This document shows, one piece after another, positions 18,165 through 37,667 of a stretch of DNA of 64,000 bases. The notes below the pieces were generated by a model. It saw nothing but the letters and a program-made list of their open reading frames with translations. It had not been told where the DNA came from and searched no databases. How positions within the stretch are numbered: position 1 is the stretch's first letter; each line of letters starts with the position of its first letter. This stretch comes from Halogranum gelatinilyticum (GTDB taxonomy: Archaea; Halobacteriota; Halobacteria; Halobacteriales; Haloferacaceae). The stretch covers positions 186,001-250,000 of the forward strand of contig NZ_FNHL01000003.1 in the NCBI RefSeq assembly GCF_900103715.1. Direction: 5' to 3'. Both the position numbers and the translations under genes were made by a program.

Positions 18165-18491
18165 ATGGCAGCTAGGCCACCGCAGGGAGACGACTCATCA
18201 CCCGAGGTCATCGAGTTCGGTATCGCGACAGTCGCCGCACGACTCGACGATGCGAACGTGTCGTTCCCGGCGACATCGGAAGACGTGGTCCGCGCCGTCG
18301 ACGACACGGCCATCCCGTACGACGCTTCGGGCAACACGTTCGAACTGGCGGACGCACTCGAACAGGTCCCGTACGACCAGTTCGAGAAACGTGCCGACCT
18401 GCTCAACGCACTCCATCCCATCTTCGAGGAGCGACGAGCGGAAGGCTCGGGAAGCGTCGTCGGCCGACTCCGCAAACTGCTGCCCTTCTAA
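18165..18491 (+). CDS. DUF5789-like haloarchaeal protein
   Basis: 108 residues. The core VIEFGIATVAARLDDANVSFP with EDVVRAVDDTAIPYDASGNT and LADALEQVPYDQFEKRADLL matches the small DUF5789/DUF2795-like helical proteins of haloarchaea that I recall. No catalytic or membrane signature; the last residues are basic (RLRKLLPF). Its stop overlaps that of aglJ by four bases, so transcription from the two sides meets here. Confidence 0.6.
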   Translation: MAARPPQGDDSSPEVIEFGIATVAARLDDANVSFPATSEDVVRAVDDTAIPYDASGNTFELADALEQVPYDQFEKRADLLNALHPIFEERRAEGSGSVVGRLRKLLPF

Positions 18492-19459
18492 TCCGACCGG
18501 CCGTCGCCTTCGAGTTTCTCCAGGCGGTCGATCTGTTCTCGGTGGAAGCTGAGAATCATGTCCGCCAGCACACCGAACATCAGGAGCTGGACCCCGAAGA
18601 GGACGGCCGCCGCGGCGACGATGGCGAGCACCTCGTGGGACACGCGCGGCACCCGGATGAACCACTCGTAGCCGACGTAACTGGCGACGGCGAACCCGAC
18701 GAACGTCGAGACGGTGCCGACGCTCCCGAAGTAGAACAGCGGGTTGTTGGTCTTCGCCCGCCGGTAGAGTTCGAGGAAGATGATTCCGCCGTCGCGGAGC
18801 GGATGGAGGTTCGTGTTCGAGCCGTCGGGTCGCGGCCGGTAGGTGATGGGAACGACCGCCGTCGACACCTCGTGTTTGACGCACTCGATGGCCATCTGCG
18901 TCTCGATACCGAAGCCGTCGGCGGTGAGCGTCAGTCTGTCGAACGATTCGCGGGTGAACGCCCGGTAGCCGCTCAGGATGTCCTGGTAGTCCTGGCCGTG
19001 GATGAACGCGAACGTGCGGTTGATGATCCGATTGCCGATGCGGTTGAGTCCGGTCATCGCCCCCTCCTGCATATCGGCGAACCGGTCGCCGATGACGTGC
19101 TCGTAGCCCTCGGCGAGCGGGTCGAGCATCTGGACGGCGTCCTCGGGTCGGTAGGTTCCGTCGCCGTCGGCCATGAGGACGTAGTCGACCTCGATGGCGT
19201 CGACGGCCTCGCGGATGGCCTGGCCCTTGCCCGAGCCGGACTGGATGAGGACGCGAGCACCGTGCTCGGAGGCGATCTTGCGGGTCCCGTCTTCGGAGCC
19301 ACCGTCGATGACGAGGACGTTCTCGAAGCCCTCGCGACGGTAGCCAGCGATGACCTCGCCGATAGTCTCCGCCTCGTTGTACGTCGGGAGGAGGACGCAC
19401 ACGTCGTCCGGGGAGACGCTGGTCGCTTCGGCTGCGGTCGCGGCGGCGGCGTGCTCCAT
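18488..19459 (-). CDS. aglJ: dolichol-phosphate glycosyltransferase AglJ
   Basis: 323 residues. Family-2 glycosyltransferase of the DPM1/DPG-synthase type: CVLLPTYNEAETIGEVIAGY, VIDGGSEDGT, MADGDGTYRPED (the DXD metal site) and DILSGYRAFTRESF. Two membrane segments near the end (about 238-258 and 270-297) anchor it with the active site in the cytosol. In Haloferax AglJ adds the first hexose to dolichol phosphate for S-layer N-glycosylation. Here it is the first member of a glycosylation locus that ends with AglB. A TATA-like box lies 28 bases upstream of its ATG. Confidence 0.85.
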   Translation of the reverse strand: MEHAAAATAAEATSVSPDDVCVLLPTYNEAETIGEVIAGYRREGFENVLVIDGGSEDGTRKIASEHGARVLIQSGSGKGQAIREAVDAIEVDYVLMADGDGTYRPEDAVQMLDPLAEGYEHVIGDRFADMQEGAMTGLNRIGNRIINRTFAFIHGQDYQDILSGYRAFTRESFDRLTLTADGFGIETQMAIECVKHEVSTAVVPITYRPRPDGSNTNLHPLRDGGIIFLELYRRAKTNNPLFYFGSVGTVSTFVGFAVASYVGYEWFIRVPRVSHEVLAIVAAAAVLFGVQLLMFGVLADMILSFHREQIDRLEKLEGDGRSD

Positions 19460-19480
19460 TGGCCGACACTGGACGCGGCG

Positions 19481-19490
19481 GTACTAAAAG
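19481..19490 (-). promoter_or_regulatory. TATA-like box of aglJ
   Basis: CTTTTAGTAC on the minus strand, about 27 bases before the ATG at 19459. Confidence 0.5.
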
Positions 19491-19520
19491 CCCTTCTGTA
19501 GGCTGCACCAGGTTCCACGG

Positions 19521-19529
19521 AGTTTATCC
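19521..19529 (+). promoter_or_regulatory. TATA-like box of the divergent glycosyltransferase pair
   Basis: AGTTTATCC, about 27 bases before the ATG at 19552. With the aglJ promoter it makes a compact 92-base divergent promoter region. Confidence 0.45.
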
Positions 19530-19551
19530 CTCGCGGTGCATAGCCGGGCAC

Positions 19552-20694
19552 ATGAACCTGCTCGCCGTCGTCGCGGCCCTCGCCGTCGCCGTGACCGCAC
19601 TGCCCTACGTGGGGTACGTCGCCCTCTACGCCCTCCTGCGTCCCGCTGGGTCGCCCGCGCGGAAGCGTGACTGCGAGCCGAACGTGAGCGTCGTCATCCC
19701 GACGTACAACGAAGCGACGATCATCGAACGCAAACTCGACGACATCTGCTCGCTTGACTATCCCGCCTCGAAGCTGGAGATCGTCCTCGCGGACGCCAGC
19801 GACGACGGCACCGCCGACGTCGCCCGCGACTATCTGGCCGGCCGCGACGGTCCCAGCCTCACCGTCCTCCACGACGACGAACGCCGCGGTGTCGCACCCG
19901 CGCTCAACGAGGCCTTCCAGGAAGCAACCGGCGAGATCATCTTCCGCACCGACGCGGACTCCGCGCTCGCTCCCGACGTGCTTCGGGAGGCGGTCGCCAA
20001 CCTCGGCGACGCCGACATCGGTGCCGTCACCGGCCAACAGACCGAGGTGCTCGGCGACAGCGAGGTCGAAGCTGATTACCGAAGCATCATCGCCAAGCTC
20101 CAGAGCCTCGAATCGCGGCTCGATTCGACGTTCATCTTCCACGGCCCCTGTTTCGCCTTCCGCCGCGAGGACTTCGTCCCCATCGACCCGAACTCGCTGG
20201 CCGACGACACCGAGGTCGCCCTCCGCATCCGCCGGACGGGCAAACGCGTCGTCATGGACCCCGCGCTCCAGTTCACCGAGTCCGGCGTCTCGGACTTCCG
20301 GAAGCGTCGCCAGCGCAAGGACCGCCGCGCGATGGGTCTTCTCAAGCTACTGTTCCAGCAACGCGACCTCCTCGGCCGCTACGGCTACTACGGCCGGGTC
20401 GTCATCCCGTTCAACTGGTGGTTCATGGTGCTCTCGCCGTGGCTGTTCCTGCTCGATATCCTGCTCGTCACGGCCGCGGCTGTCTCGCTCGTCGGTCTCG
20501 CTGGGCTCGCCTTCCCGCTCGCAGTCCTCGGGTTCGGCTACCTCGGCCAGCGAGACAACCTCGGCCCGCTCCAGCCGCTCTACGCGGTCGTCGACTCGCA
20601 GGTCTCGCTGCTCGTCGCGTCCGTCCGTCTGCTCCGCGGTGAGGGCAGCGGCGTCTGGGAGATCGACCGCGAGTCGCGGGAGGCCTTCGAGTGA
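19552..20694 (+). CDS. membrane glycosyltransferase, family 2 (processive-type)
   Basis: 380 residues. N-terminal membrane helix (about 1-28), then a GT2 catalytic domain: VSVVIPTYNEATIIERKLDD, VLADASDDGT, FRTDADSAL (the DxD) and a late QRKDRRAMG. Three hydrophobic segments (about 295-350) end the protein. This architecture is shared by cellulose-synthase-like and EPS transferases that extend lipid-linked sugars at the cytosolic face. Its stop overlaps the GTG start of the next glycosyltransferase by three bases, so the two act together. Donor and acceptor sugars are unknown. Confidence 0.8.
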   Translation: MNLLAVVAALAVAVTALPYVGYVALYALLRPAGSPARKRDCEPNVSVVIPTYNEATIIERKLDDICSLDYPASKLEIVLADASDDGTADVARDYLAGRDGPSLTVLHDDERRGVAPALNEAFQEATGEIIFRTDADSALAPDVLREAVANLGDADIGAVTGQQTEVLGDSEVEADYRSIIAKLQSLESRLDSTFIFHGPCFAFRREDFVPIDPNSLADDTEVALRIRRTGKRVVMDPALQFTESGVSDFRKRRQRKDRRAMGLLKLLFQQRDLLGRYGYYGRVVIPFNWWFMVLSPWLFLLDILLVTAAAVSLVGLAGLAFPLAVLGFGYLGQRDNLGPLQPLYAVVDSQVSLLVASVRLLRGEGSGVWEIDRESREAFE

Positions 20695-21749
20695 GAGTCC
20701 TCCAGGTTACGACTCGCTACCCGCCGCACACGGGCGGCGTCGAGGCGCACGTCGCCGAACTCGCCGAGGGACTCGTCGACCGCGGCCACGAGGTGACGGT
20801 CCTCACCGCCGACGCCCGCACGGCCGACGCACCGCGTCGCCAACGACGCGAGGGCGTCCGGGTGGTCCGCCACCGCGGCGTCGCCCCCGGCGGCGCGTTC
20901 CACGTCGCGCCCGGCATCGTCCAGTCCGTCCGCGCCAGCGACGCCGACGTCGTCCACGCGCACAACTACCACTCGCTGCCGCTCTTCTTCGCCGCCGTCG
21001 GCGACGAGTCCGGGCCGAACGCCCCCTTCGTCGCCACGCCGCACTACCACGGCGGCAGCGCGTCCGGGTTCCGCGACCGACTGCTCTCGCTCTACCGGCC
21101 GCTCGGCGGCTGGGCGCTCCGGGAGGCAGATTCGGTCATCGCGGTCAGCGACTGGGAACGCGGCGAACTGGAGCGGGACTTCGGCGTCGACGCCCGCGTG
21201 ATTCCGAACGGACTCGACGTCGCGCGGTTTTCCGAGGCAGCGGCGGCCGAGCGCGACCGGCCCTACCTCCTCTCTGTCGGTCGGCTGGAGGAGTACAAGG
21301 GCGTCCAGCACGCGATTCGCGCCCTCGCCGACCTCCCCGACTACGACCTCGTCGTCGCCGGGAGCGGCGACTACGGCGAGGAACTGCGGCGCGTCGCCCG
21401 CGAGGCCGGCGTGGAAGAGCGCGTCGACTTCCTCGGCTACGTCGCCGACGAGGAGCTGCCGGGGCTGTACGCCGGTGCGGCGGCCTTCGTGACGCTCTCG
21501 GGGTTCGAGGCCTACGGGATGACCGTCGCGGAAGCACTCGCAGCGGGGACGCCCTGCGTCGTCCGCGAGGCTGGCGCGCTCGTCGACTGGACGCGGCGCG
21601 AGGACGTCGTCGGCGTCGCCGAGACCGATGGAGGACACGTCGCCGACGCGGTCAGACGAGCCGTCGCGCTCGACGCGCCGAGCGAGCCGCTGCCGACGTG
21701 GGACGGCGTCGTCAGCGAGGTCGAATCGGTGTACGAATCGCTTGTCTGA
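20691..21749 (+). CDS. glycosyltransferase, family 4 (GT-B)
   Basis: 352 residues from a GTG that overlaps the previous stop. The N-terminal Rossmann domain has YPPHTGGVEAHVAELAEGL, and the C-terminal nucleotide-sugar domain has LSVGRLEEYKGVQHAI and GFEAYGMTVAEALAAGTPCV (the EX7E region). It is a retaining cytosolic transferase with no membrane segment. Coupled translation with the GT2 upstream and convergence with the flippase gene place it in assembly of the same lipid-linked glycan. Confidence 0.85.
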   Translation: MRVLQVTTRYPPHTGGVEAHVAELAEGLVDRGHEVTVLTADARTADAPRRQRREGVRVVRHRGVAPGGAFHVAPGIVQSVRASDADVVHAHNYHSLPLFFAAVGDESGPNAPFVATPHYHGGSASGFRDRLLSLYRPLGGWALREADSVIAVSDWERGELERDFGVDARVIPNGLDVARFSEAAAAERDRPYLLSVGRLEEYKGVQHAIRALADLPDYDLVVAGSGDYGEELRRVAREAGVEERVDFLGYVADEELPGLYAGAAAFVTLSGFEAYGMTVAEALAAGTPCVVREAGALVDWTRREDVVGVAETDGGHVADAVRRAVALDAPSEPLPTWDGVVSEVESVYESLV

Positions 21750-21752
21750 GGG

Positions 21753-23198
21753 TTACGTCTCCCGCGGTTCCAGCATCGGCAGCGTGTGCCGCAGCGTCTC
21801 GCGGAAATGTCGGCTGAGACCGAGCAGTGCGAGGAAGTAGACGGCCGCGCCGATGCCGACGACGACGACCAGCCACACCCAGTTCGTGATGCTCACGACG
21901 TAGCGGGTGAGTGCCTCGACGACGACGAACATCAGTGCCCCGGCGAGCACCTGCTCGGCCATCGGCCGCGTGAGGACGACCCCGCCGTACTCGCGGTGGG
22001 CGACGTACTGGTAGACGACGACCCGGGTCCCCTCGGCGAGGACGGTGCTCAGGATGACGCCGAGTAGCCCGACCGTGTAGCCGAGACCGACCGCCAGCGG
22101 TAGATGGACCAGGAGGATGCCGACGTTGACGCGGAAGATGATGCCCGGCCGGTCGGTCCCCTCGATGACGGCCTCGAACGGCAGTCGGTAGACGTTGAAC
22201 ACCTGAAAGAGCGCGAGTCCGGCGACGGCGAGGACGGGCGCGCCGGTGAACGTCTCGCCGAAGATGGCGAGCAGCGCGCCCGGAATCGCCAGCGCGCCGA
22301 AGAACAGCGGGATAGCGATGAGACCGGTGTAGGACAGCGTGTTCTCCAAGTCGGCACGGACCTCGCCGCCCTGCGAGTCGACGCCGCTGGACTTCACGGA
22401 GAGCGCGTCGCGGATACTCCCAGCGAACATCGCGGCCGGCATCGCGAGCTGTTGGGCGACGGTGTAGACACCCACTGCGCCCGCGCCGACGAACGCCCGG
22501 ATGATGAGCACGTCCGCGCTGGCGTAGAGATTGGTGAGAAGGGAGTTCGGGACGCTCCAGCGGGCGAAGTCGTAGACGTGCCGCGCCGTTTCGACCGTCG
22601 GGATGGCGGGGCGGACCCGCGCGGCAACTGCGGAGATGACGCCGGTGATGGCGGTCGCGACGGCGAGACCGGCGACGAGACCGAACGACTCCAGCCCCCA
22701 CCAGATGCCGACGAGCTGGAGGACGAACGTGAGCACGCTCCTGATGGAGTCCATCCACGACGAGAGCGCGGGGTAGCCGATGCCCGAGTAGAGCCGGTTG
22801 GTCACGTTGAAGAAGCCGAGCGTGACGACGATGGCGACGACGCCGTAGGCCAACTGGACGGAGCCGAAGTAGCCGACCAGCCACGGCTGGAAGGCGACGA
22901 ACGCGAGCAGGACGAGCAGCGAGAACGCGCCGTGGACGAGGAGCCCGGCACCGAGGAACCCCGGCGGGTCGATGTCGACCTCACTGACGCGTTTCTTGAC
23001 GGCGGTCGCGACGCCCGCCGGAATCTGCGTGAGGACGAACGCCGCGGCCATGACGGTCTTGTACTCGCCGAGTCCGGTGTCGCCGAGCAGGTTCGCGAAG
23101 ATGAGGATGCCGCCGAAGCCGATCCCGGCCATGAGTGCCTTCGAGCCGACGGCGAGGAGGGCCTCCCGGCCGATGGACAGCGACGGAGTCTCTTTCAT
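21753..23198 (-). CDS. polysaccharide/lipid-linked oligosaccharide flippase (MATE/Wzx-like)
   Basis: 481 residues, almost entirely hydrophobic, with about 12-14 predicted membrane helices. The N-terminus GREALLAVGSKALMAGIGFG followed by NLLGDTGLGEYKTVMAAAF is the family signature of polysaccharide-biosynthesis flippases (RfbX/Wzx). In the Haloferax AglB locus a related protein, AglR, is thought to move dolichol-phosphate-bound sugar outward. It overlaps the following phosphatase-like gene by 4 bases, so the pair forms a minus-strand operon. Confidence 0.8.
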   Translation of the reverse strand: MKETPSLSIGREALLAVGSKALMAGIGFGGILIFANLLGDTGLGEYKTVMAAAFVLTQIPAGVATAVKKRVSEVDIDPPGFLGAGLLVHGAFSLLVLLAFVAFQPWLVGYFGSVQLAYGVVAIVVTLGFFNVTNRLYSGIGYPALSSWMDSIRSVLTFVLQLVGIWWGLESFGLVAGLAVATAITGVISAVAARVRPAIPTVETARHVYDFARWSVPNSLLTNLYASADVLIIRAFVGAGAVGVYTVAQQLAMPAAMFAGSIRDALSVKSSGVDSQGGEVRADLENTLSYTGLIAIPLFFGALAIPGALLAIFGETFTGAPVLAVAGLALFQVFNVYRLPFEAVIEGTDRPGIIFRVNVGILLVHLPLAVGLGYTVGLLGVILSTVLAEGTRVVVYQYVAHREYGGVVLTRPMAEQVLAGALMFVVVEALTRYVVSITNWVWLVVVVGIGAAVYFLALLGLSRHFRETLRHTLPMLEPRET

Positions 23199-24733
23199 TC
23201 GAGATAGCCGAGGTCCGCCAGTCGCTCTTGGACTGCCTCGTCGCGGTTCTCGCTTCCGAGGTCGTCTTCGCGGGTCAGTGCCGCGGGGACGTCGTCGGCA
23301 TCGAGATACGAGAGCTCACCCGGCGAGGCAAGCGTCTCCTCGCGGACGGCACCGTCGAACTCCGGCGACAGCGGGTCGCCGAGGGCGGCCATCACCGTCG
23401 GCAACACGTCGACGATGTTCATCCCCTCAACGGTCGCGCCGCCCGACTCGAACAGCGGGCCGCGGGCGGCGAACAGGCCGCGGTAGCGGTGCTCGTAGTT
23501 GCTCGTCGGACTCGTCACGCCGCCCGTCGGCGACCAGAGCGTCGTCGGAAACAGATGCTGGGCGGGGCGGGCGATGACGTCCGGCGCGTTCGGGCCGGGG
23601 TCCGCGTAGGCCTCTTCGGGCAGGACGACGTCGCGGAAGACCGGCTCGCCGTCATCGGTCGTCAGCGACCGGAGACCGTCGCGAACCTCCCGGCGGAGCG
23701 CGTCGGGGTCGTCGACCTGCGGATGGTCGAACCGGGCGTCGTTGACGTAGATACAGCCGTACCGGACCTGCCACGCCTGCGAGTTCGGATAGTCGATCTG
23801 CGGGCTGGCGGCCGACTCCAGTTTCGAGCCGACCTCGGTGCCCATGATGAGGTTGTGGACCTTGCGGATGACCGAGTAGAGCCGGTCGGAGCGTTTGGCG
23901 ACGGCCTTCGCGGCGTCGACGGCGACGTCGGCCGCGCCGGTGGCGGACGCTTCCTCGACGAAGTAGCCCTCGTCGGCCAGCCACTCGGCGAGATGGATGT
24001 TGGTGTGTTTGTACTCGAAACCGTGGTCACTCATCAGGACGACGTTGTCGGCCTGCTCGGCCAACTGGGCGGTTTTCTCGTCGACGAGTTCGACGAGCTG
24101 CGTGTAGAACTGCTCGCGTTTCGCGTCCGAGGAGAGATTCGAGAGGATGTGACCCGCCCAGTCGGGCGTCGAGAAGAGGACGAAGCCGACGCGGGGGTCG
24201 TAGGTCTCGAACGCCTCCTTCGCGAACCGGTAGCGGTTCGTCGAGATTTCGAGGACGTGGTCGAGATACTTCTCGGGGCGCATCTTCAGGCTGCGGTCGT
24301 GGTCGAGGATGTAGTCGTCGTAGGCGTCGAGGTCCTTCAGATGGTCGGGGACGGCGTCGGCTTTGTCCTTCGCGAGCATCGCCGCGACGAGGTGGGCGTT
24401 GTCGGCGGCGGGGACGCGGCCGACGGAGGCGGGGAGGTTGACGAAGACGGAGTCGTCGAAGAGGTCGTAAGCGGCGGCGTCGGTCGTGTTCGGCTCGCTC
24501 GGGCCGACTTCGTAGTCGGGACCCTGTCGGAGCATATTCGAGACGCCGTGGCTGCCGGGGTCCTTGCCGGTGGCGAAGGAGGTCCACGCCGGAATCGTCG
24601 TCGGCGTGTCGACGCTCATGAGGTGGCCGGAGACACCCTCCTCACGGGTCTCGTTGAGGTACGGGAGGTCGATGTCGAACCGCTCGAGCATGTTGTACGA
24701 GAGGCCATCGAGCCCGACGATGAGCAGTTCCAT
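23195..24733 (-). CDS. alkaline-phosphatase-superfamily phosphodiesterase/phosphatase
   Basis: 512 residues, type I phosphodiesterase/nucleotide-pyrophosphatase type. Metal-binding Asp in LIVGLDGLSYNML, nucleophile Thr46 in DTPTTIPAWTSFATG with GSHGV, and SDHGFEYKHTNIH holding the late Asp and His ligands. It has no signal peptide, so a cytosolic or peripheral location is expected. It ends in LADLGYLE, a tail shared by the other four superfamily members in this locus. The likely role is hydrolysis or transfer of a phospho-group on a lipid-linked or nucleotide sugar; the substrate is unknown. Confidence 0.8.
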   Translation of the reverse strand: MELLIVGLDGLSYNMLERFDIDLPYLNETREEGVSGHLMSVDTPTTIPAWTSFATGKDPGSHGVSNMLRQGPDYEVGPSEPNTTDAAAYDLFDDSVFVNLPASVGRVPAADNAHLVAAMLAKDKADAVPDHLKDLDAYDDYILDHDRSLKMRPEKYLDHVLEISTNRYRFAKEAFETYDPRVGFVLFSTPDWAGHILSNLSSDAKREQFYTQLVELVDEKTAQLAEQADNVVLMSDHGFEYKHTNIHLAEWLADEGYFVEEASATGAADVAVDAAKAVAKRSDRLYSVIRKVHNLIMGTEVGSKLESAASPQIDYPNSQAWQVRYGCIYVNDARFDHPQVDDPDALRREVRDGLRSLTTDDGEPVFRDVVLPEEAYADPGPNAPDVIARPAQHLFPTTLWSPTGGVTSPTSNYEHRYRGLFAARGPLFESGGATVEGMNIVDVLPTVMAALGDPLSPEFDGAVREETLASPGELSYLDADDVPAALTREDDLGSENRDEAVQERLADLGYLE

Positions 24734-24792: not shown

Positions 24793-26214
24793 TCAGAGAT
24801 ACCCGAGGTCCTGCAGCCGGTCCTGCGTCGCCTCGTCGACGTCCGGCCCGTCGCCAGCGGCCTCGCCCGCTTCGGCGCGCTCTTTGTACGCGGAGATCTC
24901 CTCCTCGAAGAACTCGCTGTCGAAGGCGGCGTAGGGGATGCCCTCCTCGACGCGCTGTTGCCAACACGGTCGGTCGTGGTCGAGTTCGTAGAGCGAACTC
25001 CCACCGAGCGAGTCCCACTCGGCCTTCTCCTCGTCCTCGTAGACGCAGCGGAGCATCCGGTTCCAGTACTCCGGGTCCTCTGGAGGATTCGCGATACTGC
25101 TGCCGATCAACTCGGCGGGAATCCGCTCGTCGAAGACGTCCGGCGTCTCCTCGTGGGCGAGACCGACGAGCAGTTCGCCGAGTCGGAGATGCGAGAAGTA
25201 CTCGTCCTCCTCGGCGTCGTAGTCACAGTCTTCGGGCGGGTTGACGACGTAGAGCGGGACGTGCTGGAGTCCTTCTGACAGGCTGGAGTCGTGGCCGAAC
25301 AGGTAGTCCTCGGCCTCGTAGCCGAGATTCTCGCCGTGGTCCGCCGTAATCACGAACGTCGTCTCTTCGTCGGCGGCGGCCTGCACGTCGTCGATGAACT
25401 CGACAACCTTGCGGTCGAGGTAGTCGATGGCCGCGCTGTACAGCCCGCGGTGGGTCTGTACGTCGGCCATGTTGCGCTCCAGGCCTTCCTCGCCGTCGAA
25501 GTTCAGCTCCCACTTGTCGAAGTCACCGGAGGACCAGGTGTACGAGGCGCTGTGCAGCGAGCGGTCGTAGCCCCAGACGTGCCGCAGCGGCGCGTGGGCG
25601 TCCATGAAGTTCGTGAACAGGAACAGGGGTTCGGGGCTGGCGGAGACGGTCTTGACCCCCTCGCGGGCGATGATGCTCGCCCCCTCGTCGAGGAGTTTCG
25701 GGACGGGGAGCTTGGCGAGCAGTTTGTCGAGTTCGACGGCCGCACCGTTGGCGAGACTCTTCAGCGGGTGGTCGTGCTCCAAGCAGGCCTTCGCGAACGA
25801 GACGAACTTCTTCGGCCCTTCGCCCTTATGTTCGTAGCCGAAGCGGCCGACGTGGATGCCCTCGGGGAACCGGCTGTCGGGCGAGACGTCGCAGAAGTCG
25901 TCGAACATCCGGTCGAAGCCGAATCCAGAAGAGGCGTAGACGTTCGCGGAGACGCCCGTCGTGTAGTGGTCAGGGAGGTCCGCGAGGAAGGTGTCCTCCT
26001 TGGCGATGCCGGAGAAGTCGCGGTTGTGGTCGTGGACGCCGTGGACGGACGGCAGTTCGCCGGTCATCATGCTCGCGTGGCTCGGGATGGACCACGAGCT
26101 GGCGGCGCGACACTGTTCGAAGGAGACCTCGGCACGCTCCTGGATGCGGGGGGCGTACTCGTCGAAGAAGTCCTTGCGGACCGTGTCGAGGCAGATGAGG
26201 ACGACGTTTCGCAT
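24793..26214 (-). CDS. sulfatase-superfamily protein (no CxPxR formylglycine motif)
   Basis: 473 residues. LICLDTVRKDFFDEY is the N-terminal metal region, WSIPSHASMMTGELPSVHGV the nucleophile region and ITADHGENLGYEAEDYLFGH the late ligand region. At the sulfatase CxPxR position it reads S42-I-P-S-H46, so neither the Cys for formylglycine nor the Arg is present, and Ser is the probable nucleophile. This is closer to phosphoglycerol or phosphoethanolamine transferases than to true sulfatases, though sulfate esters cannot be excluded. No signal peptide. It ends in QDLGYL. Confidence 0.75.
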   Translation of the reverse strand: MRNVVLICLDTVRKDFFDEYAPRIQERAEVSFEQCRAASSWSIPSHASMMTGELPSVHGVHDHNRDFSGIAKEDTFLADLPDHYTTGVSANVYASSGFGFDRMFDDFCDVSPDSRFPEGIHVGRFGYEHKGEGPKKFVSFAKACLEHDHPLKSLANGAAVELDKLLAKLPVPKLLDEGASIIAREGVKTVSASPEPLFLFTNFMDAHAPLRHVWGYDRSLHSASYTWSSGDFDKWELNFDGEEGLERNMADVQTHRGLYSAAIDYLDRKVVEFIDDVQAAADEETTFVITADHGENLGYEAEDYLFGHDSSLSEGLQHVPLYVVNPPEDCDYDAEEDEYFSHLRLGELLVGLAHEETPDVFDERIPAELIGSSIANPPEDPEYWNRMLRCVYEDEEKAEWDSLGGSSLYELDHDRPCWQQRVEEGIPYAAFDSEFFEEEISAYKERAEAGEAAGDGPDVDEATQDRLQDLGYL

Positions 26215-26612: not shown

Positions 26613-27446
26613 GTGAACAAGGTCGTCCTCGTCACCGGCTGTGACTCCGGCATCGGCTACGCGACAGCCGAGCGGTTCGCCCGCGCCGGGTGGACCGTCT
26701 ACGCCACCGGTCTCGACGAGGACGCGCTCGCGCCCCTGACCGACCTCGGCTGCAAGACCCGCGAACTCGACGTGCGCTGGCCCGGACAGGCCGAACGCGT
26801 CGTCGCCGAGATTCTGACCGAGGCGGGCCACATCGACGTGCTGGTCAACAACGCCGGAATCGGCGTGACAGGCGCGCTGGAGGACGTCCCGCCGTCGAGC
26901 GTCGGCGCGGGCTTCGCCGTCAACGCCACCGGCGTCCACCGCGTGACTCGGGCCGTGTTGCCCGCGATGCGCGAACGCGGCCGGGGGCGAATCGTCACCG
27001 TCTCCAGCGTGACCGCGCGGTGGCCGCTGCCGGGCATGGGCGGCTACACCGCCTCGAAACACGCGGTCGACGGGCTGATGGACGTGCTCCGCGTCGAGAC
27101 GCGGCCGCACGACGTCGACGTCGTCCTCGTCGAACCCGGCGTGACCCGGACGGGGTTCATGGAAACGGCGATGACAACCGTCGCAGGTCGCCGAGAGACG
27201 ACGCAGGGCTACGACGACCTCTACCGGATGCTCGCCTTCTGGCTGCCGCTGCTCGCGCGGACGGGCAGCGGCCCCGACGACGTCGCCGACGCGGTGCTGA
27301 CGGCGGCGACGGCCGAGAACCCCAAGCGACGCTATCCGGTGGGATGGCAGGGACGCGTGTTCTCGGCGGCGAGCCATCTTCCCGCGAGCGTCCGCGACCG
27401 GCTCTGGTCGGTCGCGGGATTCGTCGCGCGGCTCGCTGACAGATAA
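26613..27446 (+). CDS. short-chain dehydrogenase/reductase
   Basis: 277 residues, classical SDR. VLVTGCDSGIGYATAERFA is the cofactor loop (TGxxxGIG), VLVNNAGIGV the NNAG motif, TVSSVTAR the catalytic Ser and YTASKHAV the YxxxK pair. A YATGLDEDAL stretch after strand 2 hints at the NAD(P) choice but does not settle it. The GTG at 26613 was preferred because a TATA-like box lies 30 bases upstream and the cofactor loop must be close to the start. Its position inside the glycosylation locus allows a role in sugar or lipid reduction, but that is not shown. Confidence 0.85.
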   Translation: MNKVVLVTGCDSGIGYATAERFARAGWTVYATGLDEDALAPLTDLGCKTRELDVRWPGQAERVVAEILTEAGHIDVLVNNAGIGVTGALEDVPPSSVGAGFAVNATGVHRVTRAVLPAMRERGRGRIVTVSSVTARWPLPGMGGYTASKHAVDGLMDVLRVETRPHDVDVVLVEPGVTRTGFMETAMTTVAGRRETTQGYDDLYRMLAFWLPLLARTGSGPDDVADAVLTAATAENPKRRYPVGWQGRVFSAASHLPASVRDRLWSVAGFVARLADR

Positions 27447-28372: not shown

Positions 28373-28396
28373 TGCCTCCGAGTCGCCGCGCCGGGG

Positions 28397-28406
28397 AGTT
28401 ATATCG
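28397..28406 (-). promoter_or_regulatory. TATA-like box of the phosphatase-like gene at 27473
   Basis: CGATATAACT on the minus strand, 30 bases before the ATG at 28372. Confidence 0.5.
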
Positions 28407-28516
28407 TTCGCTCGGCGGGCTGGGGGCCCCACAGCCGAGACAGCCCCGTCGGCACGACGGTCGGAACTGTGTCACAATCACAATCTACAACTGTCTGCCA
28501 TCGATTCTCATTCGTA

Positions 28517-29976: not shown

Positions 29977-30972
29977 ATGAGTCTGACAGAGACGGTCTCC
30001 TACGTCGTCGACGGCCTTCGCGAGAGCTACGACGACCCCTACTGGTGGCGCGAGCGGGTCTTCGAGTTCCTGGTCGGTCCCTTCCACACGAACGTCTATC
30101 CCGGCCGCGGCGGGTCGGTTCGCGTGATGGACGAGGACTGGGACACGCTCGTCGTCCTCGACGCCTGTCGCGAGGACCTGTTCACCGAGCGCGCGAGCGT
30201 CACCGACTACGACGACTACCGAACCGTCACGAGCAGGGGGAGCACGACCCGCGAGTGGGTCCGCCAGAACTTCGCGGGCGGCGACTTCGGCGACACGGTC
30301 TACGTCACCTCGAACCCCTACGTCTCACGGGAGGCGGGCGACGCCTTCCACGAGCTGATCGAGTGCTGGATGACCGACTTCGACGACGAGCGCAAGACTG
30401 TTCCGCCGGAGGCCGTCGTCGACGCCGCCAAGCGCGCCCACGAGGAGTATCCCGACAAGCGCGTCATCGTCCACTTCATGCAGCCGCACCATCCCTTCAT
30501 CGGCGAGCGCGAGCTGACGTTCGCGGGGTGGCAGATCGAGGGCGAGAGTCACGGTAGTGAGAGCGAGGAGAGTAGCGACAGCGACGACAGCGAACCGACA
30601 GAACGCCAGCGTCCCTACACCCCGTGGGACGCCCTCTGGATGGGTCGCGTCTCGAAAGACGACCTCTGGGACGCCTACGGCGACAATCTGACGCTCGCGC
30701 TCGACGCCGTCGACGACCTCCTCGACGACATCGAGGGCCGCGTCGCCATCACGTCGGACCACGGCAATATGCTCGGCGAGCGTACCTTCCCGCTCCCGCT
30801 GCGGGTCTATGGCCATCCGAAAGGAATCAGAAACGAGGAACTGGTCGAGGTGCCGTGGGCCGTCAGAGACGTCGGCCCGCGCCGGACGATCCGTACCGGC
30901 GAGACGCGCTCCGTGACGGACTCGAACGAGGACGACCTCGAAGACCGACTGGCCGACCTCGGATACGTCTGA
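29977..30972 (+). CDS. alkaline-phosphatase-superfamily protein (sulfatase-like, haloarchaeal type)
   Basis: 331 residues. DTLVVLDACREDLF is the N-terminal metal region, TSRGSTTREWVRQNF replaces the usual nucleophile motif (Ser or Thr in RGSTT), HFMQPHHPFIG and AITSDHGNMLGE supply later ligands. A Ser/Asp/Glu-rich insert (about 191-206) looks like a halophilic surface loop. It ends in LADLGYV. It is followed two bases after its stop by a second sulfatase-like gene, so the two are an operon. Substrate unknown; its company suggests an ester on a glycan or glycolipid. Confidence 0.7.
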   Translation: MSLTETVSYVVDGLRESYDDPYWWRERVFEFLVGPFHTNVYPGRGGSVRVMDEDWDTLVVLDACREDLFTERASVTDYDDYRTVTSRGSTTREWVRQNFAGGDFGDTVYVTSNPYVSREAGDAFHELIECWMTDFDDERKTVPPEAVVDAAKRAHEEYPDKRVIVHFMQPHHPFIGERELTFAGWQIEGESHGSESEESSDSDDSEPTERQRPYTPWDALWMGRVSKDDLWDAYGDNLTLALDAVDDLLDDIEGRVAITSDHGNMLGERTFPLPLRVYGHPKGIRNEELVEVPWAVRDVGPRRTIRTGETRSVTDSNEDDLEDRLADLGYV

Positions 30973-30974
30973 CC

Positions 30975-32453
30975 ATGAGCACGAACGACCCAAACGTCCT
31001 GCTCGTCGTCCTCGACAGCGTCCGCGCGAAGAACACCTCGCTGCACGGCCACGAGAACGAGACGACACCCTTCCTCGACAGTCTCAGTGAGTCGGCGACG
31101 CGGTACGACCAGGCCCGCTCGCCGGGGTCGTGGAGTCTGCCGAGTCACACGAGTATCTTCACCGGGCTGCACGTCGCCGAGCACCGCGTAACCGAACCGA
31201 AACACAAGCTCGCGGCCGGAAACACGGTCTTCGAGGAGTTGCAGACGACGGGCTACGAGACCGCCGTCTTCTCGGAGAACCCGTGGCTGACCATCATGGA
31301 CGTCGGTCTCGACGCGGGCTTCGACGAGGTCTCCGGCGCGCAGAACGTCCTCTTCCCCGAAGCGGCGAACCCGACGGAGTTCACTGCCGCCGAGGGACAG
31401 GGCCAGTACGTCGAATACGTCAAGCGGTGTCTCGACGACGACCATCCGGTCAAGTCGCTGTTGAACGGCGTCGGCACGAAACTCGCGTGGGACTACCCCG
31501 ACCTCGTCCCGGACTGGCTGATGGCGTCGGCTCCCGCCGAGGCCTACGTCGACCGGTTCGTCGACTGGCAGTCGAAGCGCGAGGGACCGTGGGCGGCCTG
31601 CATCAACCTCATGGACGGCCACGCGCCCTACGAGCCGAATCCCGAACACGACCTGTGGGGTGGGAAACGCCTCAAGAAGCTTCAGGCGGACCTGGAGAAG
31701 CACGTCTGGTCGTTCCACGGGGGCGACGTGCCGTGGTGGCAGTGCCGGGCGTTCGAGGCACTCTACGACGGCGCGATCCACCAGATGGACGCCCAACTGC
31801 GACGCATCGTCGACGTGCTCGACGAGCGCGGCGAGTTGGACGACACGCTCCTCGTCGTCACCTCGGACCACGGCGAGGGCTTCGGCGAGGTCTCGCGGCT
31901 GAAGGGCACGCGTCTCGTCGGCCACGTCGAAGGTATCGACGAGTCGCAGCTGCACGTCCCGCTCGTCGTCAAGCGGCCGGGGCAGGAGGAGGGTGAAGTC
32001 GTTACCGACCCGGCGTCGTTGACCAACTTCCCCGACGTCGTCCGCGCGGTGCGAGACGGCGACGACGAGCGAGCGCGGGAGGGCTTCACTGACGGACCGG
32101 TCGTCGCCTCGTCTCAGGGGCTGACCGAGCCGAACATGGAGCTGGCCGAACAGTTCTGCGAGCCGTCGGCACTGTGGCAGTTCCGCGGCGAGATGCGGGC
32201 GGTGTACGAAGCCGAGAGCGACAGCGACGTCGACGGCGCGGTGCTGAAACGCGCCGACTGGGACGAGGAGTCGGTCGACGTCCGCGTGGTCGACGCCCAC
32301 GCGTCGTATCTGCGTGGGGAGGACGCGGACGGCCGGGTTGGCGACGTGTTCGGGGAGTTCTCGGACGCAGGCGTGCGCGAGGCGGGGACCGACGTCGACG
32401 ACGTCGACGACGCGACGCGACAGCGGCTCAGGGACCTCGGGTACGCCGAATGA
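30975..32453 (+). CDS. sulfatase-superfamily protein (Ser at the nucleophile position)
   Basis: 492 residues. VLLVVLDSVRAKNTSLHGHE holds the metal Asp, GSWSLPSHTSIFTG the nucleophile region (Ser54-L-P-S-His58 in place of CxPxR), VVTSDHGEGFGE the late ligands. Most similar within this window to the protein at 24793, so the two are probably paralogues. No signal peptide. It ends in RDLGYAE. As with its relative, a Ser-dependent phospho- or sulfo-hydrolase or transferase is possible, while a formylglycine sulfatase is unlikely. Confidence 0.75.
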   Translation: MSTNDPNVLLVVLDSVRAKNTSLHGHENETTPFLDSLSESATRYDQARSPGSWSLPSHTSIFTGLHVAEHRVTEPKHKLAAGNTVFEELQTTGYETAVFSENPWLTIMDVGLDAGFDEVSGAQNVLFPEAANPTEFTAAEGQGQYVEYVKRCLDDDHPVKSLLNGVGTKLAWDYPDLVPDWLMASAPAEAYVDRFVDWQSKREGPWAACINLMDGHAPYEPNPEHDLWGGKRLKKLQADLEKHVWSFHGGDVPWWQCRAFEALYDGAIHQMDAQLRRIVDVLDERGELDDTLLVVTSDHGEGFGEVSRLKGTRLVGHVEGIDESQLHVPLVVKRPGQEEGEVVTDPASLTNFPDVVRAVRDGDDERAREGFTDGPVVASSQGLTEPNMELAEQFCEPSALWQFRGEMRAVYEAESDSDVDGAVLKRADWDEESVDVRVVDAHASYLRGEDADGRVGDVFGEFSDAGVREAGTDVDDVDDATRQRLRDLGYAE

Positions 32454-32504
32454 GAACCCGAGGAAGCGACCCGTTTATCACCCCGCCACAACACCCCACG
32501 AGTA

Positions 32505-33407
32505 ATGCCGCGGTACAGCATCGCCGTCTGTAGCTACAACATGGCCGAGACGGTCACGCCCTCCCTGCGGAGTATGCTCGACCAGGTCGGCGACGACTTC
32601 GAGATGGTCGTCGTCGACGGCGGCTCTACCGATGGAACCGTCGAGAAGCTCCGCGACCTCGAAGCCGATGACGACCGCGTCCGGGTCGTCGCGCTCGACC
32701 CCGACCCCGACCGCCGACTCGGCGCGGACCGCCAACGCTCCATCGAGGAGTGCGAGGGCGAGTACGTCCTGACACAGCTCGACGTCGACGACGTCTACGA
32801 GCCGATCATCGAGGACTTCGTCGCCATCTACCACGACCTCGAAGCCGGCGTCGACGGCGACTTCCTGCTCTCGGGGACCGGCATCAACATGGCCCCGAAG
32901 TCGCTCTATCTGGAGATTCCGTACCGCAACCTCGCCAGTTCCGAGGACCGCGACCTCTGGCGACGACTCTTCGCGGCCGACGCGTCGCTCTGGCTCGACC
33001 ACGCGCAGGTCCGCGAGCAGATCGGCTACGAGAAAACGCTGGAGGACCATCTCCGCCGGGACTGGACCGGCAAGGTCGCCGACGCTCAGGTCGGCATCGA
33101 CTTCTGGTCGTGTCTGCGCTGGAGTGTCAGCCACCCGCGGTACTACATCCTGGAGGAGGAGCGCGGCCCGCTCGGCACGGCCGCGAAGAGCCTCTACGAC
33201 CTCGTGACCTATCCGTTGGCGTACTACGCGGCGCGCGACCTGCCGCGGTTCGAGACGCCGCCGGGGCTGGACCGCCGTGGGACGGTCGAACGGCTCATCG
33301 CCGACCACCGAAAGCCGTTGGCCGAGTTAGAGACCGAATACGGCGTCGAGGTCGACCGCGACGCACTTTCCGAGCGCGGCCGTGAGCTGCTCTGTCGCGA
33401 CGGATGA
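32505..33407 (+). CDS. glycosyltransferase family 2
   Basis: 300 residues, GT-A fold. YSIAVCSYNMAETVTPSLRS, VVVDGGSTDGTVEKLRD and LTQLDVDDVYEPIIED (the acidic DVDD metal motif) define the family. The C-terminal half (from about 120) is unlike common GT2 tails and has no clear membrane helix, though LYDLVTYPLAYYAARD is moderately hydrophobic. The position just before aglB suggests it adds a sugar to the same lipid-linked glycan. It starts 51 bases after the sulfatase-like gene on the same strand. Confidence 0.75.
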   Translation: MPRYSIAVCSYNMAETVTPSLRSMLDQVGDDFEMVVVDGGSTDGTVEKLRDLEADDDRVRVVALDPDPDRRLGADRQRSIEECEGEYVLTQLDVDDVYEPIIEDFVAIYHDLEAGVDGDFLLSGTGINMAPKSLYLEIPYRNLASSEDRDLWRRLFAADASLWLDHAQVREQIGYEKTLEDHLRRDWTGKVADAQVGIDFWSCLRWSVSHPRYYILEEERGPLGTAAKSLYDLVTYPLAYYAARDLPRFETPPGLDRRGTVERLIADHRKPLAELETEYGVEVDRDALSERGRELLCRDG

Positions 33408-33524
33408 GCCGTCTCACGACGGGAGACACGGATGGTTTCGCCGAGGCGGCCATCAGGTGTAAATAGCCCAGAGACCAGTTGCGTACGGCAGTCTGGGCGG
33501 TGCGGGCGGCAGTGCCGTTTCACA

Positions 33525-33535
33525 AGGCTTATGCG
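33525..33535 (+). promoter_or_regulatory. TATA-like box of aglB
   Basis: AGGCTTATGCG, about 29 bases before the aglB ATG at 33559, fits a leaderless start. Confidence 0.5.
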
Positions 33536-33558
33536 CGTTTTTCGAGTCTTGCCGACCA

Positions 33559-36500
33559 ATGAGTGAGCGTAGCGAGAGTGCCGACGACAGTGCCGTCCTC
33601 AGTACGGACGGCTCGCTCGTCGAGGTACTCAAACAGAAGTATCACGTCCCCGCGCTCGTCGCCGTGGTGGCGGCGATGCTGTACGTACGGCTCGTCCCGT
33701 ACGACAGCTTCACCCGGAACGGCGAAGTGCTCTTCTCGGGGAACGACGCATGGTATCATCTCCGTGAAGTGAGTTACACGGTCCGCAACTGGCCGTCGAC
33801 GATGCCGTTCGACCCCTGGACGTACTTCCCGTTCGGCACGTCGCAGGGCCAGTTCGGGACGCTGTACGACCAGCTCGTCGCGACGGTCGCCCTCCTCGTC
33901 GGTCTCGGCAGTCCGAGCCAGGACCTCGTCGCGCAGACGCTGCTCGTCGCCCCGGCCGTCTTCGGGGCACTGACCGCGATTCCCGTCTACTACATCGGCA
34001 AGCGTCTCGGCGGCCGCCTCGCCGGTCTCTTCGGCGCGGTCGTCCTGATGCTGCTGCCGGGGACGTTCCTCCAGCGCACGCTGGTCGGCGTCGCCGACCA
34101 CAACGGCGTCGAGCCGCTGTTCCAGGCACTCGCGGTCCTCGCACTGCTCGTCGCGTTCGCGGTCGCCGAGCGCGAGAAACCCATCTGGGAACTCGTCGTC
34201 GACCGCGACACCGACGCCCTCCGAACCCCGCTCCTCTGGGCGGGCCTCGCAGGCGTCGCCACCGCCCTCTACATGTGGGTGTGGCCGCCGGGCGTCCTCC
34301 TCGTCGGTGTCGTCGGCGCGTTCGTCGTCCTGAAGCTGGTCTCCGACACCGTCAACGGCGGCAGTCCCGAACCCATCGCGTTCGCGGCCGCCGTCTCGAT
34401 GACCGTCACGACGCTCTTGATGGCCGTCCAGATCGAGGTCTTCCGCTTCACCGCGACGCGCTTCTCGCTCCTCCAGCCGGGTGTCGCGTTCGCGATTGCC
34501 GTCGGCAGCGTCTTCCTCGCGTGGCTCGCCCGCCAGTGGGAGGCTCGCGACGTCGACCTCTCGCTGTATCCGGTCGCAGTCTTCGGTCTCATCGTCGTCG
34601 GTCTCGGTGCCGTCGCACTCGTCCTCCCCGACGTGTTCGGGACGGTTCGGGCGAACCTGCTGCGGACGGTGGGCTTCAACGCGGGTGCAGAGACCCGGAC
34701 CATCGCCGAAGCGCGCCCCTTCCTCGACCCCACGCTCCTCCAGCAGCGTGGCGTCAGTCAGACCGGCCAGATCCTCTCCGAGTACGGGCTCGCGATGTTC
34801 ACGGGCGTCGTCGCCGCGGGCTGGCTCGTCGTCGGGCCGCTGCTCGAAGACGGTGAGACGCGCGACTACGGCTACGTCGGCGGCGCGGTCGCCGTCATCG
34901 GTCTCATGTTCCTCGCGCCGAGCATCCTGAACGCCGTCGCCGCCCCGCTCGACAGCGCGCTCGGCATCCCGGTCACGGGACAGCTGCTCGGACTCGTCAT
35001 CGTCACGGCACTCATCGTGGGTGCGACGCTCCTGACGCGCTACGACGCCGAACAGCTCTTCGTCATCGTCTGGGCGGCGTTCATCACGTCGGCCGCGTTC
35101 ACGCAGATCCGTTTCAACTACTATCTCGCCGTCGTCGTCGCGGTGCTGAACGCCTACCTGTTCTACCGCGTCATGAGCCTCCCGTTCGTCGGGCTGCTCT
35201 CGGCGGACTCGGTCAGCGAGGCCGTCGACGACGTCCAGTTCTATCAGGTCGCGGCCGTCGCGGTCGTCCTGCTCGTCGTCCTCGGCCCGGCACTGACCTT
35301 CTCTGTCGGCGTCGGCGCGCAGGGCAGCCAGCAGTCCAGCGCGAACGCGCTGCAGATCGCGGATAACCACGGTCCCGGCTCGGTCACCCAGTGGAGTGGC
35401 TCGTTCGCCTGGATGCAGAACAACACGCCCACCGAGGGCGACTACGGCGGTGCAGGCAACGCAGGTGAGTTGGACTACTACGGCACCTACAGCGAGGGTG
35501 ACGGTAACTACGACTACCCCGAGGGTGCCTACGGCGTGATGTCGTGGTGGGACTACGGCCACTGGATCACCGTCCAGGGCGAGCGTATCCCGACCGCCAA
35601 CCCGTTCCAGCAGGGTGCGACCACCGCCGCAAACTACCTGCTCGCACCGAGTGAGGCGGAGGCGAACCAGGTGCTCGCGAACATGGACAGCCAGCAGGCT
35701 GGCGAGGGTAACCAGACCCGGTACGTCATGGTCGACTACCAGATGGCGACGCCCGGCCAGAAGTTCGGCGCGCCCATCGTCTTCTACGACGAGGGCAACA
35801 TCTCCAGCGACGACTTCTACTACCCAATCTACCAGCAGGTCGGCGAGGGACAGTACCAGCCGATTACGCAGGTGAACAAGCAGCGCTACTACGACAGCAT
35901 GATGGTTCGCCTGTACGAGACGCACGGCAGCGCGCTGGAGGCCCAGCCGGTCGTCGTCGACTACGAGGTCGAGACGCTGACCAACCCGAACACGGGCGAG
36001 GAAGTCACCTTCCGGACGGTCCCCTCGGGTAACCAGAGCGCGGTCCGGCAGTTCCAGAACATGAGTGCCGCTCGCGCCTTCGTCGAAGAGGAAGGCACCG
36101 CACAGGTCGGTGGTCTCCCCGGTCTGCCGTCCGAGCGCGTCCCGGCACTCGAACACTACCGCCTCGTGAAGGCCAGCGAGTCCGACGCGCCGCTGCAGGG
36201 CGGTCCCGCCTGGGTGAAGACGTTCGAGCGCGTCGACGGTGCGACGGTCGAAGGGACCGGTCCCGCCGACTCGACGGTCACCGCTCGCGTCCAGATGCGC
36301 ATCCCGTCGCAGGAGCGCAACTTCACCTACACGCAGCAGGTCGAGACGGATGCAAACGGTGAGTTCACGATGACGGTGCCGTACTCCACGACGGGCTACG
36401 ACCAGTTCGGCCCGGAGAACGGCCACACCAACGTCAGCGTGCGTGCGACCGGCCAGTACCAGTTCGTCTCCGGTCCGACGGCGAACGACAACGGAACGCC

Positions 36501-36702
36501 CGTCGTCTACACCGCCTCCGCGGACGTGACCGAGGGACAGGTCGTCGGTGAGGACGGCTCGGCCACGCAGGTCGAACTGCAGTCCGAACCGCTGTTCCAG
36601 CAGCCGGACGACTCGTCGAGCGGAGACGAGGCGAATAACGAAACGAGCCAGTCGCTGACCGCACCGACGCTCGTCACCGCAGACACGGCAACAGCCAACT
36701 GA
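33559..36702 (+). CDS. aglB: oligosaccharyltransferase AglB (STT3 family)
   Basis: 1047 residues. It moves the finished glycan from dolichol (pyro)phosphate to Asn of secreted proteins such as the S-layer glycoprotein, at the outer membrane face. SGNDAWYHLREV (Asp63) is the first metal motif in an external loop, WWDYG at 663-667 is the STT3 signature, and about 13 membrane helices fill residues 28-600. The soluble C-terminal region (about 620-1047) ends in an acidic, Ser/Thr-rich tail. The stop overlaps the ATG of the DUF368 gene by one base. AglB is the hallmark of the locus and supports N-glycosylation as its role. Confidence 0.95.
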   Translation: MSERSESADDSAVLSTDGSLVEVLKQKYHVPALVAVVAAMLYVRLVPYDSFTRNGEVLFSGNDAWYHLREVSYTVRNWPSTMPFDPWTYFPFGTSQGQFGTLYDQLVATVALLVGLGSPSQDLVAQTLLVAPAVFGALTAIPVYYIGKRLGGRLAGLFGAVVLMLLPGTFLQRTLVGVADHNGVEPLFQALAVLALLVAFAVAEREKPIWELVVDRDTDALRTPLLWAGLAGVATALYMWVWPPGVLLVGVVGAFVVLKLVSDTVNGGSPEPIAFAAAVSMTVTTLLMAVQIEVFRFTATRFSLLQPGVAFAIAVGSVFLAWLARQWEARDVDLSLYPVAVFGLIVVGLGAVALVLPDVFGTVRANLLRTVGFNAGAETRTIAEARPFLDPTLLQQRGVSQTGQILSEYGLAMFTGVVAAGWLVVGPLLEDGETRDYGYVGGAVAVIGLMFLAPSILNAVAAPLDSALGIPVTGQLLGLVIVTALIVGATLLTRYDAEQLFVIVWAAFITSAAFTQIRFNYYLAVVVAVLNAYLFYRVMSLPFVGLLSADSVSEAVDDVQFYQVAAVAVVLLVVLGPALTFSVGVGAQGSQQSSANALQIADNHGPGSVTQWSGSFAWMQNNTPTEGDYGGAGNAGELDYYGTYSEGDGNYDYPEGAYGVMSWWDYGHWITVQGERIPTANPFQQGATTAANYLLAPSEAEANQVLANMDSQQAGEGNQTRYVMVDYQMATPGQKFGAPIVFYDEGNISSDDFYYPIYQQVGEGQYQPITQVNKQRYYDSMMVRLYETHGSALEAQPVVVDYEVETLTNPNTGEEVTFRTVPSGNQSAVRQFQNMSAARAFVEEEGTAQVGGLPGLPSERVPALEHYRLVKASESDAPLQGGPAWVKTFERVDGATVEGTGPADSTVTARVQMRIPSQERNFTYTQQVETDANGEFTMTVPYSTTGYDQFGPENGHTNVSVRATGQYQFVSGPTANDNGTPVVYTASADVTEGQVVGEDGSATQVELQSEPLFQQPDDSSSGDEANNETSQSLTAPTLVTADTATAN

Positions 36703-37667
36703 TGGCCACCGACCTCCGCTCGTGGCTGGTCGTCTACCTCAAGGGCCTCTGTATGGGCTCCGCGGACGCCGTCCCCGGCGTCTCGGGTGGGACCATCGCC
36801 CTCATCACGGGCATCTACGAGCGGCTCATCGGTGCCATCACCGCGGTCGACGTCGACCGGATTCTGACGATTCTCGGCGGCGTCCGTCCCGGCCGCCAGC
36901 GGGACGCCTACGACGCGTTCATGGAGATGGATGGGGTGTTCCTCCTCGTCCTCGGCGGCGGCATCGCGACGGCCATCATCACTGTCACGCGGCTGCTCGA
37001 CTGGGCTATCGAGTCCATTCCCGTCCTCACGTTCGGGTTCTTCTTCGGGCTCATCCTCGCGTCGGCGGTCGTCCTCTACTCGGAGGTCAGCCTCGACACG
37101 CCCCGGCGGGCCGCCGCGGCCGTCCTCGGCTTCACCGTCGCCTTCCTCGTCTCGGGACCGGCGTCGGCGGCCATCGACAACGGTCTCGGCTTCGTCGTCG
37201 TCGCCGGCGCGATCGCCGTGAGCGCGATGATTCTCCCCGGTATCTCGGGGTCGCTGTTGCTCATCATCCTCGGACAGTACCAGTTCATGATCGGGACGCT
37301 CCGGGAGTTCACCGACGGATTACTCGCCGTCGCGCTCGGCCGCGCGCCGGTCTCATCGCTCGTCGGCGACGGCACCGTCGTCGTTGCGTTCTGTTCCGGC
37401 GCGCTCGTCGGGCTGTTCACCATCGCCCACGCGGTCAAGTTGGCGTTAGTCCACTACCGGGAGGCGACGCTGGCGTTTCTCGTCAGCCTCATCCTCGGCG
37501 CGCTCCGCGCACCGGTCGTGAACGCGACGCAGGAACTCAACGGCGGCGCGGGGACGGACCTCTCCGTGTGGACGGTGGAACTCCTGGCCGTCTTCCTCGC
37601 GACTGCCGTCGTCGGTGCGGCCGTCGTCCTCCTGGTGGACCACTACGGCGACATCGACCTCGACTGA
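36702..37667 (+). CDS. DUF368 membrane protein, candidate polyprenyl-phosphate translocase
   Basis: 321 residues, about 8-10 membrane helices. Two related motifs, GSADAVPGVSGGTIALITGI (about 18-37) and SAMILPGISGSLLLIIL (about 169-185), give an internal repeat like those of inverted-topology transporters. DUF368 proteins (PopT) were shown in bacteria to carry undecaprenyl phosphate back across the membrane. Here the gene overlaps the aglB stop (TGATG), so its product is made with AglB. The natural inference is recycling of dolichol phosphate after glycan transfer. The fold assignment is firm; the archaeal substrate is inferred. Confidence 0.85.
   Translation: MATDLRSWLVVYLKGLCMGSADAVPGVSGGTIALITGIYERLIGAITAVDVDRILTILGGVRPGRQRDAYDAFMEMDGVFLLVLGGGIATAIITVTRLLDWAIESIPVLTFGFFFGLILASAVVLYSEVSLDTPRRAAAAVLGFTVAFLVSGPASAAIDNGLGFVVVAGAIAVSAMILPGISGSLLLIILGQYQFMIGTLREFTDGLLAVALGRAPVSSLVGDGTVVVAFCSGALVGLFTIAHAVKLALVHYREATLAFLVSLILGALRAPVVNATQELNGGAGTDLSVWTVELLAVFLATAVVGAAVVLLVDHYGDIDLD

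Follow-up and report, generated by a model that had tools for sequence, protein, structure and literature searches.

AglB locus content

The window analysed here, a 64,000-nucleotide stretch spanning positions 186001-250000 of one contig of the haloarchaeon Halogranum gelatinilyticum (whole genome, 3.77 Mb), harbors a 19-kb N-glycosylation locus (18488-37667) with several genes of the alkaline-phosphatase superfamily (APsf) beside the oligosaccharyltransferase AglB. The locus comprises AglJ, three further glycosyltransferases, a MOP flippase, five APsf genes (labelled AP1 to AP5), an arylsulfotransferase (ASST)-like propeller, AglB, a DUF368/PopT translocase and an SDR oxidoreductase (Table 1). 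As AglB and AglJ both scored above curated NCBIfam cut-offs and are accompanied by glycosyltransferases and a flippase, the stretch is, on these family assignments, the AglB-anchored N-glycosylation locus of the cell.

The original prediction, made from the DNA letters alone, had listed all of these gene classes except the SDR oxidoreductase, and each was recovered by Pfam or NCBIfam matches or, for AP4, by profile-profile comparison. Its count of five APsf enzymes was also correct: four exceeded Pfam cut-offs, while AP4 fell under them (17.3 vs 25 bits) and was counted as the fifth because its family profile matched that of the AP2/AP5 family (99.9% probability, E 3e-35).

Table 1. Features of the AglB locus, with window coordinates, strand and the matches on which each assignment is based (aa, amino acids).
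Feature	Position	Strand	Basis
AglJ, dolichyl-phosphate hexosyltransferase starting the glycan	18488..19459	-	TIGR04182 455 bits, cut-off 325
GT2 membrane glycosyltransferase	19552..20694	+	PF00535; start by codon usage, alternative 19459
GT4 glycosyltransferase	20691..21749	+	PF13439/PF00534
MOP-superfamily flippase, 10 predicted membrane segments	21753..23198	-	PF13440/PF01943 (Polysacc_synt); hydropathy scan
AP1, type I phosphodiesterase-like APsf, 512 aa, tail RLADLGYLE	23195..24733	-	PF01663 90.5 bits, cut-off 23
AP2, sulfatase-fold APsf, 473 aa, nucleophile SWSIPSH, tail RLQDLGYL	24793..26214	-	PF00884 57.1 bits, cut-off 25
SDR oxidoreductase	26613..27446	+	PF00106 164 bits
AP3, short phosphodiesterase-like APsf, 299 aa, tail LKDLGYME	27473..28372	-	PF01663 46.9 bits, cut-off 23
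ASST-like propeller, 458 aa	28517..29893	+	PF14269 35.4 bits (cut-off 27), PF05935 26.8 (24.2)
AP4, divergent APsf, 331 aa, motifs HFMQPH and SDHG...YGHP, tail RLADLGYV, VNG1063H-like	29977..30972	+	profile-profile
AP5, sulfatase-fold APsf, 492 aa, nucleophile SWSLPSH, tail RLRDLGYAE	30975..32453	+	PF00884 116.5 bits, cut-off 25
GT2 glycosyltransferase	32505..33407	+	PF00535 63.5 bits
AglB oligosaccharyltransferase	33559..36702	+	TIGR04154 943 bits, cut-off 450
DUF368/PopT polyprenyl-phosphate translocase, overlapping the end of aglB	36702..37667	+	PF04018 215 bits, cut-off 26

Linkage of APsf genes to AglB

In the genome 14 APsf genes were detected (13 distinct genes from the PF00884 and PF01663 searches, plus AP4), five of which lie within the 19-kb locus, where about 0.07 would be expected. 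The distribution was further examined in 52 AglB loci, taking up to 40 kb around AglB (40 further genomes obtained via AglB and 11 via named species; at least two genomes may be counted in both sets). When these loci were scanned with profiles in six frames, the 787 kb upstream of AglB yielded 112 APsf open reading frames (ORFs) and the 750 kb downstream yielded 2; assuming equal density, p is about 4e-30, related genomes not being independent. Given this contrast and the excess within the 19-kb locus, the clustering of APsf genes at AglB is not due to chance. Among the 48 loci having at least 15 kb upstream of AglB, 36 carried one to seven APsf ORFs. The APsf module occurs well beyond this genome and is a common, highly variable component of haloarchaeal AglB loci.

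Both genomes of the same genus kept the order AP2, SDR, AP3, ASST, AP4, AP5, GT2, AglB and PopT with few extra ORFs in between, AP1 being missing from their AglB loci. A genome of a neighbouring genus had the full set of five APsf types, with the difference that the second gene of sulfatase type was AP2-like. The original prediction had named beforehand, as one refuting observation, the absence of these genes from AglB loci of close relatives; four of the five were present in both same-genus genomes, and the five types, with the difference just given, in the neighbouring genus.

A second STT3-like gene lies on contig C4 (25944-182117) together with four APsf genes (38223, 81631, 179856, 181197), and is perhaps part of a second glycan locus.

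Kinship with characterized N-glycan sulfotransferases

Three APsf genes of the Halobacterium salinarum AglB cluster were tested by Zaretsky et al. (2025; PMC11980604). Deletion and heterologous expression in Haloferax volcanii identified VNG1056C/Agl30 and VNG1057C/Agl31 as N-glycan sulfotransferases, which sulfate two sugars of the H. salinarum glycan, and the soluble Agl31 was proposed to act cytosolically on the dolichol-phosphate-linked glycan (PMC11980604). The pentasaccharide glycan of Hfx. volcanii itself is unsulfated. The H. salinarum cluster (Agl30, UniProt Q9HQQ3; Agl31, Q9HQQ2; VNG1063H, Q9HQP7) resembles the present locus in being AglB-anchored, in having several APsf genes with an LxxLGYx C-terminus and in its action, predicted for the present locus, on a dolichol-phosphate-linked glycan. 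The present locus differs in encoding five APsf proteins and not three, two of them phosphodiesterase-type, and an ASST-like propeller. With its five APsf genes, it is a larger representative of a type for which activity was demonstrated in 2025.

The C-termini of the tested enzymes, decoded from the published cloning primers with the frame fixed by the StrepII tag, read HLEDLGYL for Agl30 and LEELGYT for Agl31 (primers: PMC11980604). The same LGYx tail ends AP1 to AP5, in the form (R/H)LxDLGYx, and is found on 12 of the 14 APsf genes genome-wide. Among 90 APsf proteins from the neighbourhoods surveyed (gene-finder set, which misses atypical islands), 81 had an L-x-x-LGY terminus. A role of the tail as a locus-specific docking tag was ruled out, since its presence on 12 of the 14 genomic APsf genes makes it a family trait. 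The tail shared with Agl30 and Agl31 supports kinship of these proteins, not orthology.

The H. salinarum genome used for comparison was that of the type strain DSM 3754, not of the tested laboratory strain. Its contig L231 carried glycosyltransferases and three APsf genes, and was taken, although this is not proven, as part of the type-strain AglB cluster, with AglB near the end of another contig. One of the three APsf proteins was 39% identical to AP2 over 479 amino acids (E 1e-110) and fell in the same clade with 100/100 support; the second was AP4-like (29%, E 9e-23) and the third resembled AP5 (27%, E 2e-27). AP5 itself belonged to a second clade (100/100 support) with members from AglB loci of other haloarchaeal families.

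Primer-decoded peptides were also tried as a means of locating Agl30 and Agl31 in the type strain and picked out no single gene, and three primer sequences of the study (PMC11980604) matched no surveyed locus, the type strain included. The type-strain L231 cluster, which the laboratory-strain primers do not match, lends itself to a comparison of how glycans vary within this species.

Active site and predicted location of the APsf enzymes

AP5 aligned with sulfatases and phosphonate monoester hydrolases of solved structure (4uph, 4upi), and the fold and the metal-binding SDHG motif are shared with these PF00884 enzymes. Formylglycine sulfatases bear the signature C/S-x-P-x-R. This signature was found in neither AP2 nor AP5 (for AP5, by alignment): at the formylglycine position, AP5 has a Ser in S-L-P-S-H and AP2 one in S-I-P-S-H, and the Arg at +4 is missing. 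The window proteins further differ from PF00884 hydrolases in their assembly-locus context and predicted cytosolic location. A hydropathy scan detected no membrane segment or signal sequence in AP1 to AP5, whose expected site of action is therefore the cytosol, with the dolichol-phosphate-linked glycan as substrate.

The original prediction had read these genes as hydrolases that trim the glycan; as true hydrolases they would be sulfatases or phosphatases engaged in glycan trimming or recycling. The family names (PF00884, PF01663) agree with such a role, as does the nature of the best solved relatives of AP5; however, AP2 and AP5 are devoid of the formylglycine motif, the proteins are predicted to be cytosolic, their genes are linked to assembly genes, and the tested counterparts transfer sulfate (PMC11980604), so that hydrolysis appears improbable. 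The part of the prediction in which the locus assembles a dolichol-linked glycan and decorates it with sulfate or phosphate was well supported by the gene content, the AglB linkage and the published precedent (PMC11980604), whereas its trimming step was unsupported, as the precedent is one of transfer and not hydrolysis, and is probably wrong. Structure prediction of AP4 from the five window paralogues gave a predicted local distance difference test (pLDDT) score of 39, too poor for a fold search.

EptA and LtaS are APsf enzymes that move groups onto glycans with a Thr nucleophile. Some of the window proteins could act in the same way, attaching phospho-glycerol- or phospho-ethanolamine-like groups from lipid donors to the glycan, while AP1 and AP3 would act on phosphodiester bonds. 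Such phospho-transfer agrees with the PF01663 matches of AP1 and AP3, the weak EptA/LtaS-family matches of AP5, the lack of a detected adenosine 5'-phosphosulfate (APS) kinase (see below), and the SDHG/ADHG...GH motifs kept in AP2, AP4 and AP5, which resemble those of EptA. The EptA/LtaS scores, however, were far under cut-off, the window proteins have no counterpart of the membrane domain of these enzymes, and two tested enzymes of the same position and kind are sulfotransferases (PMC11980604). Phospho-transfer is accordingly regarded as unlikely, though less so than hydrolysis.

ASST-like propeller

The propeller was delimited to 28517-29893 by codon usage and Pfam matches; the longer ORF 27500-29893, read as one 797-amino-acid protein, was rejected, its first 300 codons being antisense to AP3. 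One N-terminal and two C-terminal membrane segments (hydropathy scan) suggest that the propeller faces outward. H156, H210, N212, R227 and H260 were invariant among 13 homologues, but only H210, N212 and R227 of these aligned to the solved sulfotransferase 9kf4, in a weak profile match (E 0.014). The protein resembles bacterial ASST (PF05935/PF14269) in its Pfam matches above cut-off and, by this weak alignment, in H-x-N and R-N motifs, and differs from it by membrane segments at both ends and many paralogues. Its single-sequence structure prediction (pLDDT 46) was too poor for a fold search.

The propeller could itself supply or perform glycan sulfation outside the cell, the APsf genes then serving other roles. 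Besides the matches and aligned residues above, its position speaks for this option: it adjoins AP4, AP5 and AglB in each of the genus's three genomes, and lies near AglB in one further genome (G034). Conversely, the propeller family is multicopy (of 170 genomes of the family, 103 had matches, frequently several apiece), it occurred at most 16 kb upstream of AglB in just 4 of the 52 loci, and the ASST alignment is weak. Propeller-based sulfation therefore seems very improbable. Being multicopy and rarely near AglB, the propeller was considered an optional neighbour of the locus.

DUF368/PopT and genes adjoining AglJ

A DUF368/PopT gene was found beside AglB in 38 of 41 haloarchaeal neighbourhoods, and the two genes overlap by one base in the window (33559-37667). 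This adjacency fits a role in dolichol-phosphate recycling. The window protein has the PF04018 domain of PopT/DUF368 translocases, and differs from bacterial PopT in falling below the NCBIfam equivalog cut-off (190.8 bits vs 400). A Haloferax DUF368 homologue partly complements a Vibrio cholerae undecaprenyl-phosphate translocase mutant (PMC9876793).

Two other genes were observed next to the locus. A 69-amino-acid ribbon-helix-helix-like protein adjoining AglJ (17850-18059, minus strand) may regulate the locus; at least 11 other haloarchaea have a nearly identical orthologue in the same place next to AglJ. Its last residues, LTDLGYLE, resemble the APsf tails, perhaps through convergence with a SHOCT-like helix. 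A 658-amino-acid protein (15104-17080, plus strand) had no Pfam match, and its C-terminal half, with HYIGH and NACRSY motifs, looks by eye like a CHAT/caspase-type protease; several relatives have an ORF of comparable length at a corresponding place upstream of AglJ.

Proposed role of the APsf enzymes

Taken together, gene content, AglB linkage, active-site sequences and the H. salinarum precedent make it likely that the AP enzymes are cytosolic sulfotransferases (or phospho-transferases) decorating the dolichol-phosphate-linked glycan of the AglB locus. AglJ would start the glycan on dolichol phosphate and the GT2 and GT4 enzymes would lengthen it; before flipping, the soluble APsf enzymes would put sulfate, or less likely phosphate-linked groups, on particular sugars, possibly with one modified position per enzyme. 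These enzymes, for which Agl30 and Agl31 of H. salinarum serve as the model, would rely on a Ser/Thr nucleophile together with a metal site retained from their phosphatase and sulfatase ancestry. The transferase assignment is most confident for AP2 and AP5, and less so for AP1, AP3 and AP4. Judging from their families, the MOP flippase would then turn the glycan outward, AglB would move it to asparagine and the DUF368 protein would return the spent dolichol phosphate, with the ASST-like propeller, predicted to face outward, as an optional accessory.

Several observations weigh against this role. VNG1063H, the third H. salinarum APsf gene, had no effect on sulfation (PMC11980604), and is probably of the AP4 type: VHYFQPH is among the peptides decoded from its primers (reading frame picked by fit), and a HYxQPH-type motif, which AP4 also has, occurred in 55 of 159 APsf ORFs with an LGY tail. 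The tested enzymes include no counterpart of the phosphodiesterase-type AP1 and AP3, and AP5 weakly matches lipid A phosphoethanolamine transferases, which leaves room for phospho-transfer. Kinship to Agl30 and Agl31 is drawn from the tails and the type-strain relatives, and the cluster of the type strain seems to be a different one. Finally, the genome encoded no convincing APS kinase, its sole PF01583 match above cut-off being the P-loop of the signal recognition particle (SRP) receptor FtsY, which was rejected, and neither a PF01747 ATP sulfurylase nor a Sulfotransfer_3 protein (PF13469) was found in it, a CysND-type sulfurylase, PF00685 and divergent kinases not being excluded.

The best PF01583 matches in 10 other haloarchaeal genomes, including H. 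salinarum and Haloarcula vallismortis, were likewise the FtsY P-loop, and two weaker second matches (G064, residues 2-117, 23 bits; G061, residues 6-85) were too weak for APS kinases. As no convincing APS kinase was found in these 11 genomes, among them H. salinarum with its proven glycan sulfation, 3'-phosphoadenosine 5'-phosphosulfate (PAPS) is not an obvious donor; the text of the sulfotransferase study makes no mention of PAPS (PMC11980604). Tentatively, and with more doubt than confidence, the APsf enzymes of AglB loci could form a separate class of carbohydrate sulfotransferases working without PAPS, taking sulfate from APS or another donor via a Ser/Thr-sulfated intermediate and so reversing sulfatase chemistry, while how many APsf genes a locus carries (0 to 7 in this survey) would determine how many sites of the surface glycan are sulfated.

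The present analysis adds to the published work a quantified linkage of APsf genes to AglB, a correction of their expected role from hydrolase to transferase, and the question of the missing PAPS. If confirmed, the latter would mean that APsf sulfotransferases may not use PAPS, which makes the sulfate donor a concrete, testable question. For haloarchaea more broadly, AglB-locus genes that carry a sulfatase or phosphodiesterase annotation probably act in the direction opposite to that implied by their names.

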